Assembly (NCBI GenBank): GCA_005776885.1
Contig: SXOD01000009.1
Location: 1 to 64,000 of the forward strand
Length of the DNA stretch: 64,000 nucleotides
DNA from: Planctomycetia bacterium
GTDB lineage: Bacteria > Planctomycetota > Phycisphaerae > Phycisphaerales > SM1A02
Reading direction: 5' to 3'
In this document: in pieces, positions 4,202 through 10,078 of the stretch
How the letters are laid out: every line of letters begins with the position of its first letter
Numbering within the stretch: position 1 is the stretch's first letter
Translations under genes and position numbers: made by a program
The notes under the pieces: generated by a model
What the model was told of the DNA's origin: nothing
The model's input: the letters and a program-made list of their open reading frames with translations, nothing else
Database searches by the model: none

Positions 4202-4726
4202 TCATCGGCCATCCGCAGCCCGCTCCAGCCGATAGATGAACCGGTCGCTGGGAACGCCGGCGATCGACACCTGCTCGCGATGGTGGAACGAGGCACCGAT
4301 GCGCTCCAATGACTTTTGCGATCGCACATTGCCGGGGCTGACCTGGAACCAGACCGTCGCCACGTGCGCGAAGGCATGCGCCAGCATGAGCGACTTGACC
4401 TGGGCATTCGTGCGCCCGCCCCAGTGAGCGCGCTCCAGAAAGGTATAGCCGATCACCACCGACGACTGGATCGGATCCCAATCGTAGAAGCGGCTGGACC
4501 CGATGATCCGCCCGCCCTCGCGCTCTTCGATGACCATGCCGCCGCCACAGTCGAGTGCGCCATCGAAGAATCGTTCAAAGACAGCTCGTTCGTGTCGATT
4601 TCGCTCCGAGTGCTGCTCCCACACCAAGGGATCGCTCGCGGCAGCGTGGAGGCCATCAAGGTCCTCGCGCTCGATGGGGCGGACCGTGACTGCCGAGCCG
4701 TGCAAGGTGGGCTGCCAGGGAGTCAT
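4202..4726 (-). CDS. GNAT family N-acetyltransferase (RimJ/RimL-like)
   Basis: VIGYTFLERAHWGGRTNAQVKSLMLAHAF...GNVRSQKSLERIGASF. Confidence 0.85.
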   Translation of the reverse strand: MTPWQPTLHGSAVTVRPIEREDLDGLHAAASDPLVWEQHSERNRHERAVFERFFDGALDCGGGMVIEEREGGRIIGSSRFYDWDPIQSSVVIGYTFLERAHWGGRTNAQVKSLMLAHAFAHVATVWFQVSPGNVRSQKSLERIGASFHHREQVSIAGVPSDRFIYRLERAADGR

Positions 4727-6273
4727 TGGTGCCTTGAATCCTCCCCCACGCTCAGCGCAAGCGTGGCCAGCGCCACGCGCACGGCGGCACGCGATTCCTG
4801 CTCCACCAGCTGCGCATCGGCCAGTCCGCGGCGCGCTTCATCCGCCTCCACAAAAGTCGCAAGGCCGTTCTTGAATGCGGCAAGTGATTGCTGGTGATTG
4901 CGTTCGCTGGCCGCGACAAGCGCCTGCACGACCGCTCGCTGCCTCAGTGCCGTCGACAGGCCCGCGTAGGCCTTCCATACTTCGCGCGTGGCGCGATTGC
5001 GACTCGCGGCGATCTCTGCGCTTGATGCACTGAGCCCAGCCAGGGCGATCTGCAGCTTGGTCTCCCGCATCTCGCCATCGAGGATCGGAATCGAGACACC
5101 CACGAACGCGCCGTACCACGGTTGCGTGGTCGATTCCCAGCCAACGCTGGCGACATCGAATGACTCATAGGGAATCCCGACATTCCCGCCGGCAGTCACC
5201 GTCGGCTTGAAGTCGGCGCGCGCCAGACGCACCGCCGCCTGGCTGGAACGGTAGCCCGCCACGGCGACCTTCATGTCGTCGCGCTGCTCAATCGCGCGGG
5301 TGACATAGTCCTCCACATCCTGGGCGAGCGCGGCGGTGCCATGGTCGTCGAGCGGCATTTCATCCCGCGCCACGAGAAGATCGTTTGCGGGAGCAAAGCC
5401 GACCGCCTCGATGAGGTCGATCCTCGTCGTGGCCTCCAGGGCCATGGCCACCTCCACCCCCCACTCCGCCTGCACGCGGCTGCGGATCGCCGCCAAGAGT
5501 TGCGTCTCCGTGGCGAGGCCGTTGTCCACGCCGGCTCGCACCTCGCGTTCCATTTCCGTGGCCGCAAGGGCGGCGACCCGCGCCGTGGCCACGCGCTCAC
5601 GCGAAGTCAGGAATGCGTGGTAGGCAACGGTGACGGCGTACCCAACCGTGCGGTGCTCCTGGCTGAATGCCGCATCCGCCGCGAGTGCCTTCGCCTGCGC
5701 CATGTCACGCGCCGCCTCCCGGCGGCCACAGTCGTAGACCAGCCAAGTGAGCTGGAGGCTTGGGACGACATCAAGGGTCTGCGCAGAGAAATAGGTCGAA
5801 TCGATCACCCCGGGAACCTGTTGGATGGGGAAGACCGCTCGCTCATACCCCGCGACGAGCGACGCGGCGAGCATCGGCTGATACGCGCCCTCCACCAAGC
5901 CGATGGCCATGGCGGCCTGCCGCGCCCGCTCCCATGCCACCCGCGTGCCGGGATTGGAGCGCTGTGCGATGTCAATCAATTCTGGAAGCCCGTATTCACG
6001 CGTCGGGTCGACCTTCGGGGCCGCAGCCACCGCGAGTTCCACTCCCTGGCCAAGCACCTTCGGCGGATTGGTGTTCCCGAACGCAAGGGCTTGGAGCGCT
6101 TCATCGATGTCCTGGTCTCCCGTCTGGGAAGCCCTCCATTCGGCGTCGGGGCGAGTGGGTGCGACCTGTTCCCACGGCGTTCGGGGTGCGCAGCCCACGA
6201 AGCACGCCGCGCTTCCCAATGCCGCGATCACACAAGCAATCGGGACCACGCATCGAGCCCATCGGCTTAGCAT
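4723..6273 (-). CDS. TolC family outer membrane efflux protein (lipoprotein-like)
   Basis: Start MLSRWARCVVPIACVIAALGSAACFVGCAP; YGLPELIDIAQRSNPGTRVAWERARQA and coiled-coil TolC-type repeats. Confidence 0.85.
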   Translation of the reverse strand: MLSRWARCVVPIACVIAALGSAACFVGCAPRTPWEQVAPTRPDAEWRASQTGDQDIDEALQALAFGNTNPPKVLGQGVELAVAAAPKVDPTREYGLPELIDIAQRSNPGTRVAWERARQAAMAIGLVEGAYQPMLAASLVAGYERAVFPIQQVPGVIDSTYFSAQTLDVVPSLQLTWLVYDCGRREAARDMAQAKALAADAAFSQEHRTVGYAVTVAYHAFLTSRERVATARVAALAATEMEREVRAGVDNGLATETQLLAAIRSRVQAEWGVEVAMALEATTRIDLIEAVGFAPANDLLVARDEMPLDDHGTAALAQDVEDYVTRAIEQRDDMKVAVAGYRSSQAAVRLARADFKPTVTAGGNVGIPYESFDVASVGWESTTQPWYGAFVGVSIPILDGEMRETKLQIALAGLSASSAEIAASRNRATREVWKAYAGLSTALRQRAVVQALVAASERNHQQSLAAFKNGLATFVEADEARRGLADAQLVEQESRAAVRVALATLALSVGEDSRHQ

Positions 6274-6281
6274 GGCGCGAG

Positions 6282-6494
6282 ATGCTAACGGTCGCACACG
6301 CTCCGGTCTTTGAGTTCTTCGGGGCGTACTTTCCGTCATGGTTGCCCGCGATGCTGTGTGGCGTGATCGGCGCGTCGCTGCTCCGAGCCGCACTCGGGAG
6401 GGCCGGATTGCACGATCGGATCCCGCTGCCGCTCCTGACCTACGTCGCGGCCACGGTGTTGGTGGCCTGCGCCGCACGGCTGCTTCTTGCCTGA
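6282..6494 (+). CDS. Small inner-membrane protein, YtcA/DUF1656-like, in an efflux operon
   Basis: MLTVAHAPVFEFFGAYFPSWLPAMLCGVIGASLLRAAL...: two predicted hydrophobic segments, directly upstream of HlyD and FUSC genes as in ytcA-mdtNO-type loci. Confidence 0.6.
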   Translation: MLTVAHAPVFEFFGAYFPSWLPAMLCGVIGASLLRAALGRAGLHDRIPLPLLTYVAATVLVACAARLLLA

Positions 6495-7554
6495 GCATTC
6501 TCCAATGACCGACTCATCCTCGCAGACTTCCCGCGCGCGCATCGTGACTGGGGTGACGGTGCTCTTCGCCGGAATCGCAGCCTTCTTGGCGTGGCGGCAG
6601 TCCATGGATGCTCCCGGCAGCGATGAGGCCTTCGTGCGCGCGGACACCGTCGCGATCGCGCCTCGCGTGGCCGGTCCGATCGTGGACCTGCGGGTGCGCC
6701 AAGGCTCGCATGTAAACGCCGGCGACACTCTCTTCATGATTGATCCGCGACCCTTCGACTTGGCGGTCGCCAACGCAGCTGCCCTGGAAGGGGCCGCCTT
6801 GGCACAAGTCCAGATCGAGCAACGCCGAGATCTCCAGCTGCGCGCCCTCTGCGCCGCGGCCGATGCCGAAGTGATCGGGGCTCGGGCGGTCGCCGTCGAA
6901 CGCCGCGCCACGCTCGCCCGCGTCACCGCCATGGCGGATGGCGGTTTTGCCACGGCCCAAGAACTGGACGTGGCCCGAGCGGCGCTGGCCTCGTCGGAGG
7001 CACTGTTGCTCGCGGCCGAAGGCGCCGCGGAAGCCGCGCGAGCCGCCGTGAGCGAACTCTCCAGCGTCGAGGCCCAGGTGATGGCGCTCCGCGCCTCCTT
7101 GGACATGGCCCGGCTGGAGCGCCGTTTTTGCGAGGTGACGGCGCCCGTTTCTGGCACCGTGATCGCGCTCGATTTCGCAGTCGGCACGCATGCCATGCCG
7201 GGCATTCCGCTCTTCCAGCTCCTGGTGGACGACACCTGGACCGTCGACGCTCCGCTCCTGGAGGGCCACCTGAAGGATCTTCGAGTAGGTGATGCCGCCG
7301 AGGTCTGGGTGATGACCGATCCGTCGCGGCGTTTCGAGTGCGTCGTGGAGTCCATCGGTGTTGGCGTTCGCCCGACGGACGAGATCAACATTGGCGGCAT
7401 CCCCTTCGTCCGGCGCGAGCTGGACTGGGTTCGCGTGGCACAGCGATTCCCCGTGCGCTTGCGAGTGATCGATCCCGACCCGTCCCTGTTCCGATTGGGG
7501 GCGAGCGCCAGCGTGATCGTCCATCCCGGCACGGGACCCGGCGATGCGCGCTGA
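6487..7554 (+). CDS. HlyD family secretion/efflux periplasmic adaptor
   Basis: RVAGPIVDLRVRQGSHVNAGDTLFMIDPRPFDLAV... and APVSGTVIALDFAVGTHAMPGIPLFQLL. Confidence 0.88.
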   Translation: MPEHSPMTDSSSQTSRARIVTGVTVLFAGIAAFLAWRQSMDAPGSDEAFVRADTVAIAPRVAGPIVDLRVRQGSHVNAGDTLFMIDPRPFDLAVANAAALEGAALAQVQIEQRRDLQLRALCAAADAEVIGARAVAVERRATLARVTAMADGGFATAQELDVARAALASSEALLLAAEGAAEAARAAVSELSSVEAQVMALRASLDMARLERRFCEVTAPVSGTVIALDFAVGTHAMPGIPLFQLLVDDTWTVDAPLLEGHLKDLRVGDAAEVWVMTDPSRRFECVVESIGVGVRPTDEINIGGIPFVRRELDWVRVAQRFPVRLRVIDPDPSLFRLGASASVIVHPGTGPGDAR

Positions 7555-10078
7555 CGCGGCACATGACCTGCACACGGCGAGCGCACTGCAGTGGCCATGC
7601 GCGCTAGCCGAGTGGCGTGATGAACTCCGCGCCTTCCCCGGCCGCACCCGCGCCGCCGCGCGCCTGACCATCGTCACCTGCGCCACGATCGTGGTCGGCC
7701 TGTGGCTCCAGGTGCCAGCCCTGGACATCGCCGCCTACATCGTCATCTTCTCCTACCGACCAAGCACCCACGCGACTGCCAAGACCTGCGTCGGCTTTGC
7801 GGTCCTTGGCTTCCTGGCGGCGCTTCTCACGATTCTCTTTTGGTCGCTCACCGCCGATGCGCCCACCATGCGTGTGGCCATCCTGGCCGCCGGCGTCTTC
7901 ATCGCGATGTACGCGCGCACCTTTGGGGAGAAGGGAGTGGCCGCCTACGGCCTCGCCACCTTCACGGTGTGCATGATCACATTCTCTTCGCTGGTGCCAG
8001 ATGCCGACCTGGTCACTCGATTGTCGCTCAAGGCCGCACTCGGTGTGGCCATCGCGTCACTCCTCTCCGCGGCAGGCGCATTCCTCCTGTACCCGTCCCG
8101 TCCCAGCACCGGGCCCACCGACGGCCCGGCGCAGGCCGAGCACCTCTCCGCCGCCGATCGCCGGACCTTCGCGCTTCGCGCCACGGCCGCCGCGATGGCG
8201 GGGTACCTCTTCTACAACCTCACCGACTGGTTTGGCATCCACACCTGCATGTACACCATCCTCTTCATCTGCACGATGGATCGATCGTTCCGGAGACACA
8301 AGGGGACACTGCGAATCACCGGAGCGGCACTTGGCGGGGTGCTCGCCCTGCTCGCCATCGTCTTCGTCGTGCCCTACCTGGACAGCGTCGCGGGGCTGCT
8401 CATGCTCGTCGCGCCGGTCACTTTTCTCGCGGCCTGGGTCGCGGTCGGGAGCGACCGATTGGCCTACGCTGGGCTGCAACTTGGGCTGGCGTTCTATCTG
8501 GCACTGCTCGGCTCCGACGGCCCTACCAGCAACCTCTCCGAAGCGCGCGATCGGGTGGTTGGCGTGCTCGTCGGCGTGATCGCCGTCTGGCTGGCGTTTG
8601 ATGTGGTCCGGGTGCGACAGCGCATGCCACCCCTTGCCAACATTCCGCTGCACGGCTCCAGAGCAGCCGCTCTGGCCACGATCACCGCGATGGCCGCCTT
8701 GCTGGCGGCCCCTTCGGCCGCTGCGCAAGGCTCGACGGGCAACTCGACTCCATCAACTGATGCCGCCGCGACCACAGGCGTGCCGGCACCGCCCCCCGCC
8801 TGCGCCGCCACCGCAATCGCCAAGCCGCCAACGGTGCGAGTGCGGCTGCGAGACGGCTCCAAGGTCAACGGTCGCGTGACGGCGTACGGAGTCGATGGAT
8901 GCACTGTTGCATTGAGCGACAAGGCGGCAGCTGGCACTGCCGACTCGACGCGCACCGTGCTGTGGATCTCGATCATCCCCGGAGACGTCGACTCGCTGGC
9001 CGCAAAGGTGTTGGGGAAGAAGGAGCCAGCCGACCTCCTGCTCAACGCCGAACTGCTCGCGCTGGCGGGCGAGGGCAACAAGGCGGATGCCGCGTTTGAT
9101 CGCGTGCTCCGTTCCGATCGTGCGCTGGCCGCTCAGGTGGAGGCGTCCAAGGCACGCGCGCGCGACCGAATGGCCGACGCTGAGCACACCGAACGCATCC
9201 GCCTGCATGGCGTGATGGCCGCATCGATCCCAACACAGCCCGGCGGGCCTGCGCCCTGGCCGATTCTCTCGCGCCCAGAGCACGAGGCGGCGGTGGAGTC
9301 CATGAAGCGTCGAGCCGAGGAGATCTGCGCCACCGCGCGCGTGAATGCCACCTTGGTGGAGACTCGATACTTCCTGCTGTATGCGGCGACCCGGCCCGAA
9401 GCAGCGATGGAGTGCGCGCGCAGCCTTGACGCGATGTACGAAAAGGTGCTGGAGCTCTTTGGCATCCCGCCGGGGCTCAATCTCTTCTGGGGGAAGGCCG
9501 TCGTGCTCCTTCAGCCCAACGAGGAGGTCTTTCGTGTCGTCGAGGGCGCGGCGTTTGGGCAGATGACGCCACCCGGAGTCGTGGGCCTCTGCCACATGGC
9601 TGGACCGCAGGTGTTCCTCAACATCTTCTGGTCGGATGACCAGGATCGCTTCGACGCGGTGCTCCTCCACGAAGCCGTGCACGGCATCATGCACCGCTAC
9701 CACTCGGCTGCCCGAATTCCCGCTTGGGCCGATGAGGGACTTTCGGAGTACATCGCGGCGGTAAGTTTCAAGAGTTCTCCCGTCGACGGCGAACGCCGAC
9801 CCCAGGCGGTGGAGTTCATTCGCTCGGGTGGCAATGTGGCGCAGATCATGCGCCTCAACTACCAGGATCGATCATGGCCAGGCCCCAATGCCGTGGGCTA
9901 CGCCGTGGGCTACGCCGTCGTGGAACTCATGATCCGCCAGCAGCCGGAGCGATTCGGGCGCTGGATCCGAGCGGTCAAGGGTGGCAAGCCGTGGGAACAG
10001 GCCCTGGCCGAGGACTTCGGCTTCACGACCGACCAGTTCGCCGCCACCGCGACGGAGTGGTATCGACGGGGAGGCTGA
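7544..10078 (+). CDS. FUSC-family transporter domain fused to a gluzincin-like (HEAVH) metallopeptidase domain
   Basis: N-terminal multi-TM FUSC-like half, signal-peptide-like segment from residue 361 (MPPLANIPLHGSRAAALATITAMAALLAAPSAAAQ), C-terminal VLLHEAVHGIMHRY...AWADEGLSEYIAA. Confidence 0.8.
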   Translation: MRADAAHDLHTASALQWPCALAEWRDELRAFPGRTRAAARLTIVTCATIVVGLWLQVPALDIAAYIVIFSYRPSTHATAKTCVGFAVLGFLAALLTILFWSLTADAPTMRVAILAAGVFIAMYARTFGEKGVAAYGLATFTVCMITFSSLVPDADLVTRLSLKAALGVAIASLLSAAGAFLLYPSRPSTGPTDGPAQAEHLSAADRRTFALRATAAAMAGYLFYNLTDWFGIHTCMYTILFICTMDRSFRRHKGTLRITGAALGGVLALLAIVFVVPYLDSVAGLLMLVAPVTFLAAWVAVGSDRLAYAGLQLGLAFYLALLGSDGPTSNLSEARDRVVGVLVGVIAVWLAFDVVRVRQRMPPLANIPLHGSRAAALATITAMAALLAAPSAAAQGSTGNSTPSTDAAATTGVPAPPPACAATAIAKPPTVRVRLRDGSKVNGRVTAYGVDGCTVALSDKAAAGTADSTRTVLWISIIPGDVDSLAAKVLGKKEPADLLLNAELLALAGEGNKADAAFDRVLRSDRALAAQVEASKARARDRMADAEHTERIRLHGVMAASIPTQPGGPAPWPILSRPEHEAAVESMKRRAEEICATARVNATLVETRYFLLYAATRPEAAMECARSLDAMYEKVLELFGIPPGLNLFWGKAVVLLQPNEEVFRVVEGAAFGQMTPPGVVGLCHMAGPQVFLNIFWSDDQDRFDAVLLHEAVHGIMHRYHSAARIPAWADEGLSEYIAAVSFKSSPVDGERRPQAVEFIRSGGNVAQIMRLNYQDRSWPGPNAVGYAVGYAVVELMIRQQPERFGRWIRAVKGGKPWEQALAEDFGFTTDQFAATATEWYRRGG

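Follow-up and report, generated by a model that had tools for sequence, protein, structure and literature searches.

Here we describe a 20-bp element, TAGCATGGCGCGAGATGCTA, which occupies positions 6268-6287 of the window, by which we mean the whole 64,000-nucleotide stretch analysed (positions 1 to 64,000 of contig SXOD01000009.1, assembly GCA_005776885.1, from a Planctomycetia bacterium of the order Phycisphaerales). The element spans the start codons of two divergent genes of an efflux locus: tolC, which is read leftward and encodes an outer-membrane efflux protein (OEP), and ytcA, which is read rightward at the head of a ytcA-hlyD-fusC operon. Judged from its sequence, this 20-mer is likely to be the overlap of two sigma-70-type promoters, each leaderless or nearly so, that are reciprocally nested: the putative -10 box of each promoter, TAGCAT, would be the reverse complement of the ATG CTA that opens the opposite gene.

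An inverted repeat at two divergent start codons

An earlier note on this DNA had described a 20-mer with identical 6-bp inverted ends, and direct reading of the window bears this out, except that the perfect arms are one base pair longer than it had stated, at 7 bp (TTAGCAT at 6267-6273 and ATGCTAA at 6282-6288). Its further statements, that TAGCAT stands 8 nt ahead of ATGCTA on both strands and that ATGCTA forms codons 1-2 of both genes, hold as well, the corresponding open reading frames being 70 aa (+ strand) and 516 aa (- strand) long. The exact motif TAGCAT-N8-ATGCTA occurs a single time in the 2.49-Mb genome. As a bare palindrome the 20-mer is only moderately unusual: when up to two mismatches are allowed, 33 of 100 shuffled versions of the window contain one. 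What goes well beyond chance is its position at both starts, the placing of both boxes at the leaderless distance, the presence of the rare codon CTA in both genes and its retention in a diverged ortholog.

Leaderless genes are known to carry TANNNT about 12 nt ahead of the start codon, with no conserved -35 element and no Shine-Dalgarno (SD) sequence (PMC3160421; for Deinococcus-Thermus, PMC12340547), and the genome studied here displays the same statistical signature. In 408 kb of this genome (the window together with loci L051-L070) we called 298 genes by a simple codon score. Of the 419 ATGs in the vicinity of a called start, 52 have TANNNT at -12 to -16, compared with 9 among 2080 internal ATGs (p ~1e-32). 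The peak is sharp, such hexamers being absent at 11 to 7 nt upstream, and TAGCAT is the commonest of the 78 boxes, with 8 occurrences. Both tolC and ytcA fit this pattern, with TAGCAT at -14, and reading the sequence ahead of either ATG revealed no SD-like motif (GGAG, GAGG or AGGA). The leaderless premise of the earlier note, together with its assignment of TAGCAT as a reciprocally nested -10 box, is thus backed by the sequence statistics. Roughly one fifth of the near-start ATGs do carry an SD-like motif, and therefore not every gene is leaderless.

Codon usage is in line with this arrangement. Only 0.6% of the leucine codons in the called genes, or 0.06% of all their codons, are CTA; it is codon 2 in both tolC and ytcA and the sole CTA of each gene. 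We suggest that this rare codon is found there because codon 2 has to provide the partner's box with its T and A.

If both promoters are active, one would drive tolC leftward and the other ytcA-hlyD-fusC rightward. A rightward polymerase would melt positions 6268-6273 and start at about 6280-6282, on the ytcA ATG or 1-2 nt upstream of it, while a leftward polymerase would melt 6287-6282 and start at about 6276-6273, at or just before the tolC ATG. This corresponds to a predicted transcription start 0-2 nt ahead of each start codon, given the usual distance from a -10 element to its start site, and the messages would accordingly be translated with virtually no leader. By geometry, only one open complex could form at a time. 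The likely outcome would be that the two halves of a single efflux machine are expressed in a balanced and coordinated way, at a low level.

Conservation and recurrence of the nested form

The closest ortholog, L003, comes from another genus (OEP 63% and YtcA 54% identity). Its positions 762-786 read GCTAGCAT-GCGTGCGCG-ATGCTAGC, that is, TAGCAT-N9-ATGCTA with arms of 8 bp, and both of its genes begin ATG CTA; by contrast with these arms, the 45-nt flanks are only 16% and 36% identical to those of the window when compared without gaps. Since synonymous sites are likely to be saturated at this distance and both CTA codons are still kept, their retention appears to point to selection on the DNA. 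In a third ortholog, L073, the ytcA side carries TACGAT 15 nt ahead of an in-frame ATGCTA. The expectation that the 20-mer would be conserved in relatives therefore stands for L003, where the palindrome persists with a spacer of 9, and for only half of the element in L073. Because it is kept in a distant relative, we regard the nested arrangement as probably real. A class-wide search for this YtcA subtype returned no further ortholog.

We then looked for TAGCAT-N(0-30)-ATGCTA across the family, in 181 genomes. Sixteen sites fell at spacers 6-9 (4 spacings) and 18 at spacers 10-30 (21 spacings), an enrichment (binomial p 2e-5) of precisely those spacers that set each box 12-15 nt ahead of the opposite start; matches with a spacer of 0 (TAGCATATGCTA) were set apart as a separate conserved element beside a metal-type ABC transporter. 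In two cases, L135 (an endonuclease/phosphatase-family (EEP) lipoprotein beside a ThuA-family protein) and L141 (a PSCyt1/PSCyt2 protein beside a methyltransferase), TAGCAT-N6-ATGCTA places both boxes at -12 between long reading frames on both sides, in gene pairs unrelated to the efflux pair. In the 181 genomes, the more general TANCAT-N6-ATGNTA was found at 27 places as against 15 for an N12 control, with a long open reading frame on at least one side at 16 versus 5 and on both sides at 2 versus 0, from which it follows that two-sided nesting is rare and that the one-sided matches are as expected from ordinary leaderless genes. Reciprocal nesting is recurrent but rare; the nested sites outside the window were found partly by targeted search, and the sample gives no estimate of their frequency.

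Tight divergent leaderless pairs provide the context for these cases. There are 16 in the 408 kb, with start gaps of up to 70 nt, and in several, with gaps of 22-27, the two boxes have a central TA in common (ATCGTATTCT, ACTCTACGCT, ATCGTATCCT and ACGCTAGAGT), which is the form expected of bidirectional promoters. Pairs with gaps of 22-29 were seen at L056 16221/16251, L058 4088/4111, L058 13997/14023, L070 2397/2421 and L066 18141/18169, most of them sharing the central TA. Among roughly 31 divergent OEP/ytcA loci in the family, some 24 carry a leaderless-type box ahead of each gene, at start gaps of 24-28, 34-44 or 62-65. No pair among our samples has a start gap of 10-21, the nested pairs lying at 4-9. 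The two forms are probably interconvertible by small changes, since L135 is nested while in its sister L150 these two genes start at a gap of 24 and have TA-sharing, non-nested boxes (ATGCTAGTGT). We read the tolC/ytcA case as an extreme form of the closely spaced divergent leaderless promoters that are frequent in the lineage, and as a variation on known bidirectional promoters.

Several observations weigh against nested promoters. No -35 element is visible at either one, the profile at this position being flat in the leaderless set of the genome too; TAGCAT shares only 4 of its 6 bases with TATAAT; and a scan for the sigma-70 consensus, which is uninformative for promoters consisting of TANNNT only, detected no promoter at the stringency used. 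The spacer test was post hoc, having been run on the same search that prompted the hypothesis. At most of the spacer 6-9 matches a long gene is present on just one side, so ordinary leaderless genes contribute part of the enrichment, and an AT-richer genus supplies several of the matches. L073 retains TAGCAT on the tolC side, but its OEP start is shifted by about 43 nt, and strict reciprocity is lost. Finally, orthologs of this subtype number only 3 in the 181 family genomes, the window included.

Known divergent promoters and competing explanations

Bidirectional promoters consist of symmetric DNA with -10 elements on opposite strands, to which polymerase binds in one orientation at a time, and their divergent start sites lie from a few to about 20 bp apart, most often 18, and 10-23 bp apart in five that were tested (PMC10268837, PMC12825309). 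The boxes in the window resemble them in lying on opposite strands and so close together that one orientation would fit at a time. They differ in that they do not share a -10 element: two separate hexamers, 8 nt apart, have passed each other and lie in codons 1-2 of the opposite gene, and the predicted start sites are 5-9 bp apart, nearer than in the published examples. At other pairs of this genome a central TA is shared, as in ATCGTATTCT. In Mycobacterium tuberculosis, closely juxtaposed divergent promoters are called common, and prpD and its regulator form an adjacent divergent pair that is leaderless on both sides; the passages located in that report describe no start codons serving as reciprocal -10 boxes, unlike the arrangement in the window (PMC3898074). 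In text searches, neither PMC3160421 nor PMC12340547 proved to mention Planctomycetes, or pairs that are divergent or bidirectional, and the word leaderless does not appear in PMC12825309. Among open-licence papers we found no description of start codons as reciprocal -10 boxes, and no matching account of leaderless Planctomycetes genes or of divergent leaderless promoters whose start codons overlap.

If the nested reading is correct, this would be the tightest divergent transcription known to us, with two mRNAs, their start codons and their promoters in about 20 bp, and the concept of the bidirectional promoter would extend to leaderless genes. The codon choice of each gene would then be set by the promoter of the other, rare usage at codon 2 could report promoter overlap, and the locus would offer a clean test of steric exclusion, in which one synonymous codon change should silence the opposite gene. 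The same data may also serve as indirect evidence for widespread leaderless transcription in what is probably a planctomycete family, an assignment suggested by the PSCyt1/PSCyt2 protein of one relative. A stronger proposal would make reciprocally nested leaderless promoters a class of their own, under selection in the lineage, with coding sequence, translation start and both promoters in the same 20 bp and with initiation strictly in one direction at a time; this is conceivable but seems less likely than not.

It seems improbable that two ATG CTA starts came to lie 8 nt apart by coincidence, with the real promoters inside the opposite gene and mRNAs that carry leaders. Near-palindromes are not rare in shuffled sequence, four matches to TATAAT are weak evidence and some genes of this genome do have SD-like motifs, all of which such an explanation would accommodate; what it leaves out of account is that two genera have both kept CTA as the second codon of each gene while the flanks diverged, the position of both boxes at the leaderless distance of the genome, and the recurrence of the form in unrelated gene pairs.

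Slightly less probable again is an operator, in which a dimeric repressor or activator bound to TAGCAT-N8-ATGCTA would control both genes together. The arms are perfect in the window and in L003, and the spacer-0 palindrome GTAGCATATGCTAC, which occurs in the same family near a metal-type ABC transporter operon, has the same arms; a regulator with such half-sites may exist, given that this palindrome is conserved. That operator-like element has a spacer of 0, however, whereas the efflux orthologs do not even keep one spacing between themselves: at the two sites compared, the change from 8 in the window to 9 in L003 shifts the phase of the half-sites, although the arms have not moved away from the start codons. 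ATG, CTA and the box already account for both arms, no regulator gene is present among the neighbours read, and the form recurs at the start codons of gene pairs unrelated to this one.

Least credible is the ultra-compact switch that the earlier note had envisaged, bistable or mutually exclusive, in which polymerase on one promoter shuts off the other and the cell makes either TolC or the inner-membrane complex but never both together: the putative open complexes would share the same bases, which would physically exclude simultaneous opening, and strong activation of one side of an E. coli bidirectional promoter represses the other, but the basal activity of the five E. coli promoters was too low for competition, with only activation of one side lowering the other (PMC12825309), the divergent pair persists in relatives whose boxes are not nested, at start gaps of 24-62 nt, and the products belong to one machine, so that both would be needed together. 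For this last reason, coordinated low expression from the nested promoters seems likelier to us than a switch.

As a separate observation, the 14-bp palindrome GTAGCATATGCTAC is present in about 18 of the 181 family genomes (for example at L101:1500-1513), with loci at L101-L104, L114, L115, L120, L121, L126-L128 and L148. At the loci compared, it mostly adjoins an operon encoding a metal-type ABC transporter binding protein (LVATTGMVGDVV) and an ATPase. It looks like a candidate operator of a metal-responsive regulator, which we presume to be MntR-like.

Gene content of the efflux locus

Pfam profiles identify an OEP on one side of the element and Ytca, HlyD and FUSC proteins on the other (Table 1), in agreement with the divergent efflux system that had been proposed. 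The OEP opens with a lipoprotein-like signal peptide, MLSRWARCVVPIACVIAALGSAAC, and residue 7 of YtcA aligns to position 1 of the PF17090 (Ytca) profile, at 29.8 bits against a curated cut-off of 28.8; because the protein on one side begins with a signal peptide and the domain on the other begins six residues after the start, both start codons are plausible. DUF1656 is the second-best profile for the YtcA reading frame, just under its own cut-off. The open frame of hlyD runs over the end of ytcA from a TTG at 6487, with the ATG at 6505 as an alternative start, and the FUSC reading frame in turn overlaps the end of the adaptor gene.

Table 1. Positions of the inverted repeat, the putative promoter elements and the genes of the efflux locus in the window
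Feature	Position	Strand	Basis and remarks
Inverted repeat TTAGCAT-N8-ATGCTAA	6267..6288	none	Read directly; spans both start codons and both putative -10 boxes
Putative -10 box TAGCAT of ytcA	6268..6273	+	First T at -14; opposite strand is tolC codons 1-2, ATG CTA
Putative -10 box TAGCAT of tolC (OEP)	6282..6287	-	First T at -14; opposite strand is ytcA codons 1-2, ATG CTA
OEP/TolC-type outer-membrane efflux protein, 516 aa, predicted lipoprotein, start ATG CTA	4723..6273	-	PF02321 E 8e-43; ORF list
YtcA/DUF1656-like small membrane protein, 70 aa, start ATG CTA	6282..6494	+	PF17090 29.8 bits, PF07869 24.5 bits
HlyD-type periplasmic adaptor, ytcA operon	6487..7554	+	PF16576, PF13437; ORF list
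FUSC-type inner-membrane transporter (fusaric-acid resistance-like), long C-terminal extension	7544..10078	+	PF13515 E 6e-7

In its composition of a YtcA or DUF1656 protein with HlyD, FUSC and OEP components, the locus is like the E. coli MdtNOP/YtcA and AaeXAB-type operons (Pfam). The best annotated relatives of its HlyD protein are plasmid-borne mdtN-type genes, at 38-39% identity. The outer-membrane gene is divergent in the window, unlike that of E. coli mdtNOP, which we take to be co-directional.

The YtcA protein of the window starts MLTVAHAPVFEFFGAYFP, without a cysteine, whereas most of its family relatives in the loci compared carry a lipobox, ...GCDPI. This absence of a GCDP lipobox from the protein encoded at 6282-6494 is accompanied by a near-cut-off match to DUF1656 (AaeX type), and the protein may be an intermediate between the YtcA and DUF1656 families of small proteins. 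A scan of the genome contigs for HlyD found two distant loci only. The same genome contains a second ytcA-hlyD operon, at G000:C60 43200-43391 (L018, L070), with a lipobox-type YtcA and a GTG start; this locus, too, is a tight divergent leaderless pair, with TACGAT at -15, TAGGAT at -13 and a start gap of 38. Lastly, the FUSC-type reading frame at 7544-10078 is 844 aa long and runs on, without leaving frame, into a further region that contains a stretch resembling a signal peptide, AALATITAMAALLAAPSAAAQ, as well as an HExxH-like motif, LLHEAVHG, so that it is either a transporter/metallopeptidase-like fusion or two genes in one frame.
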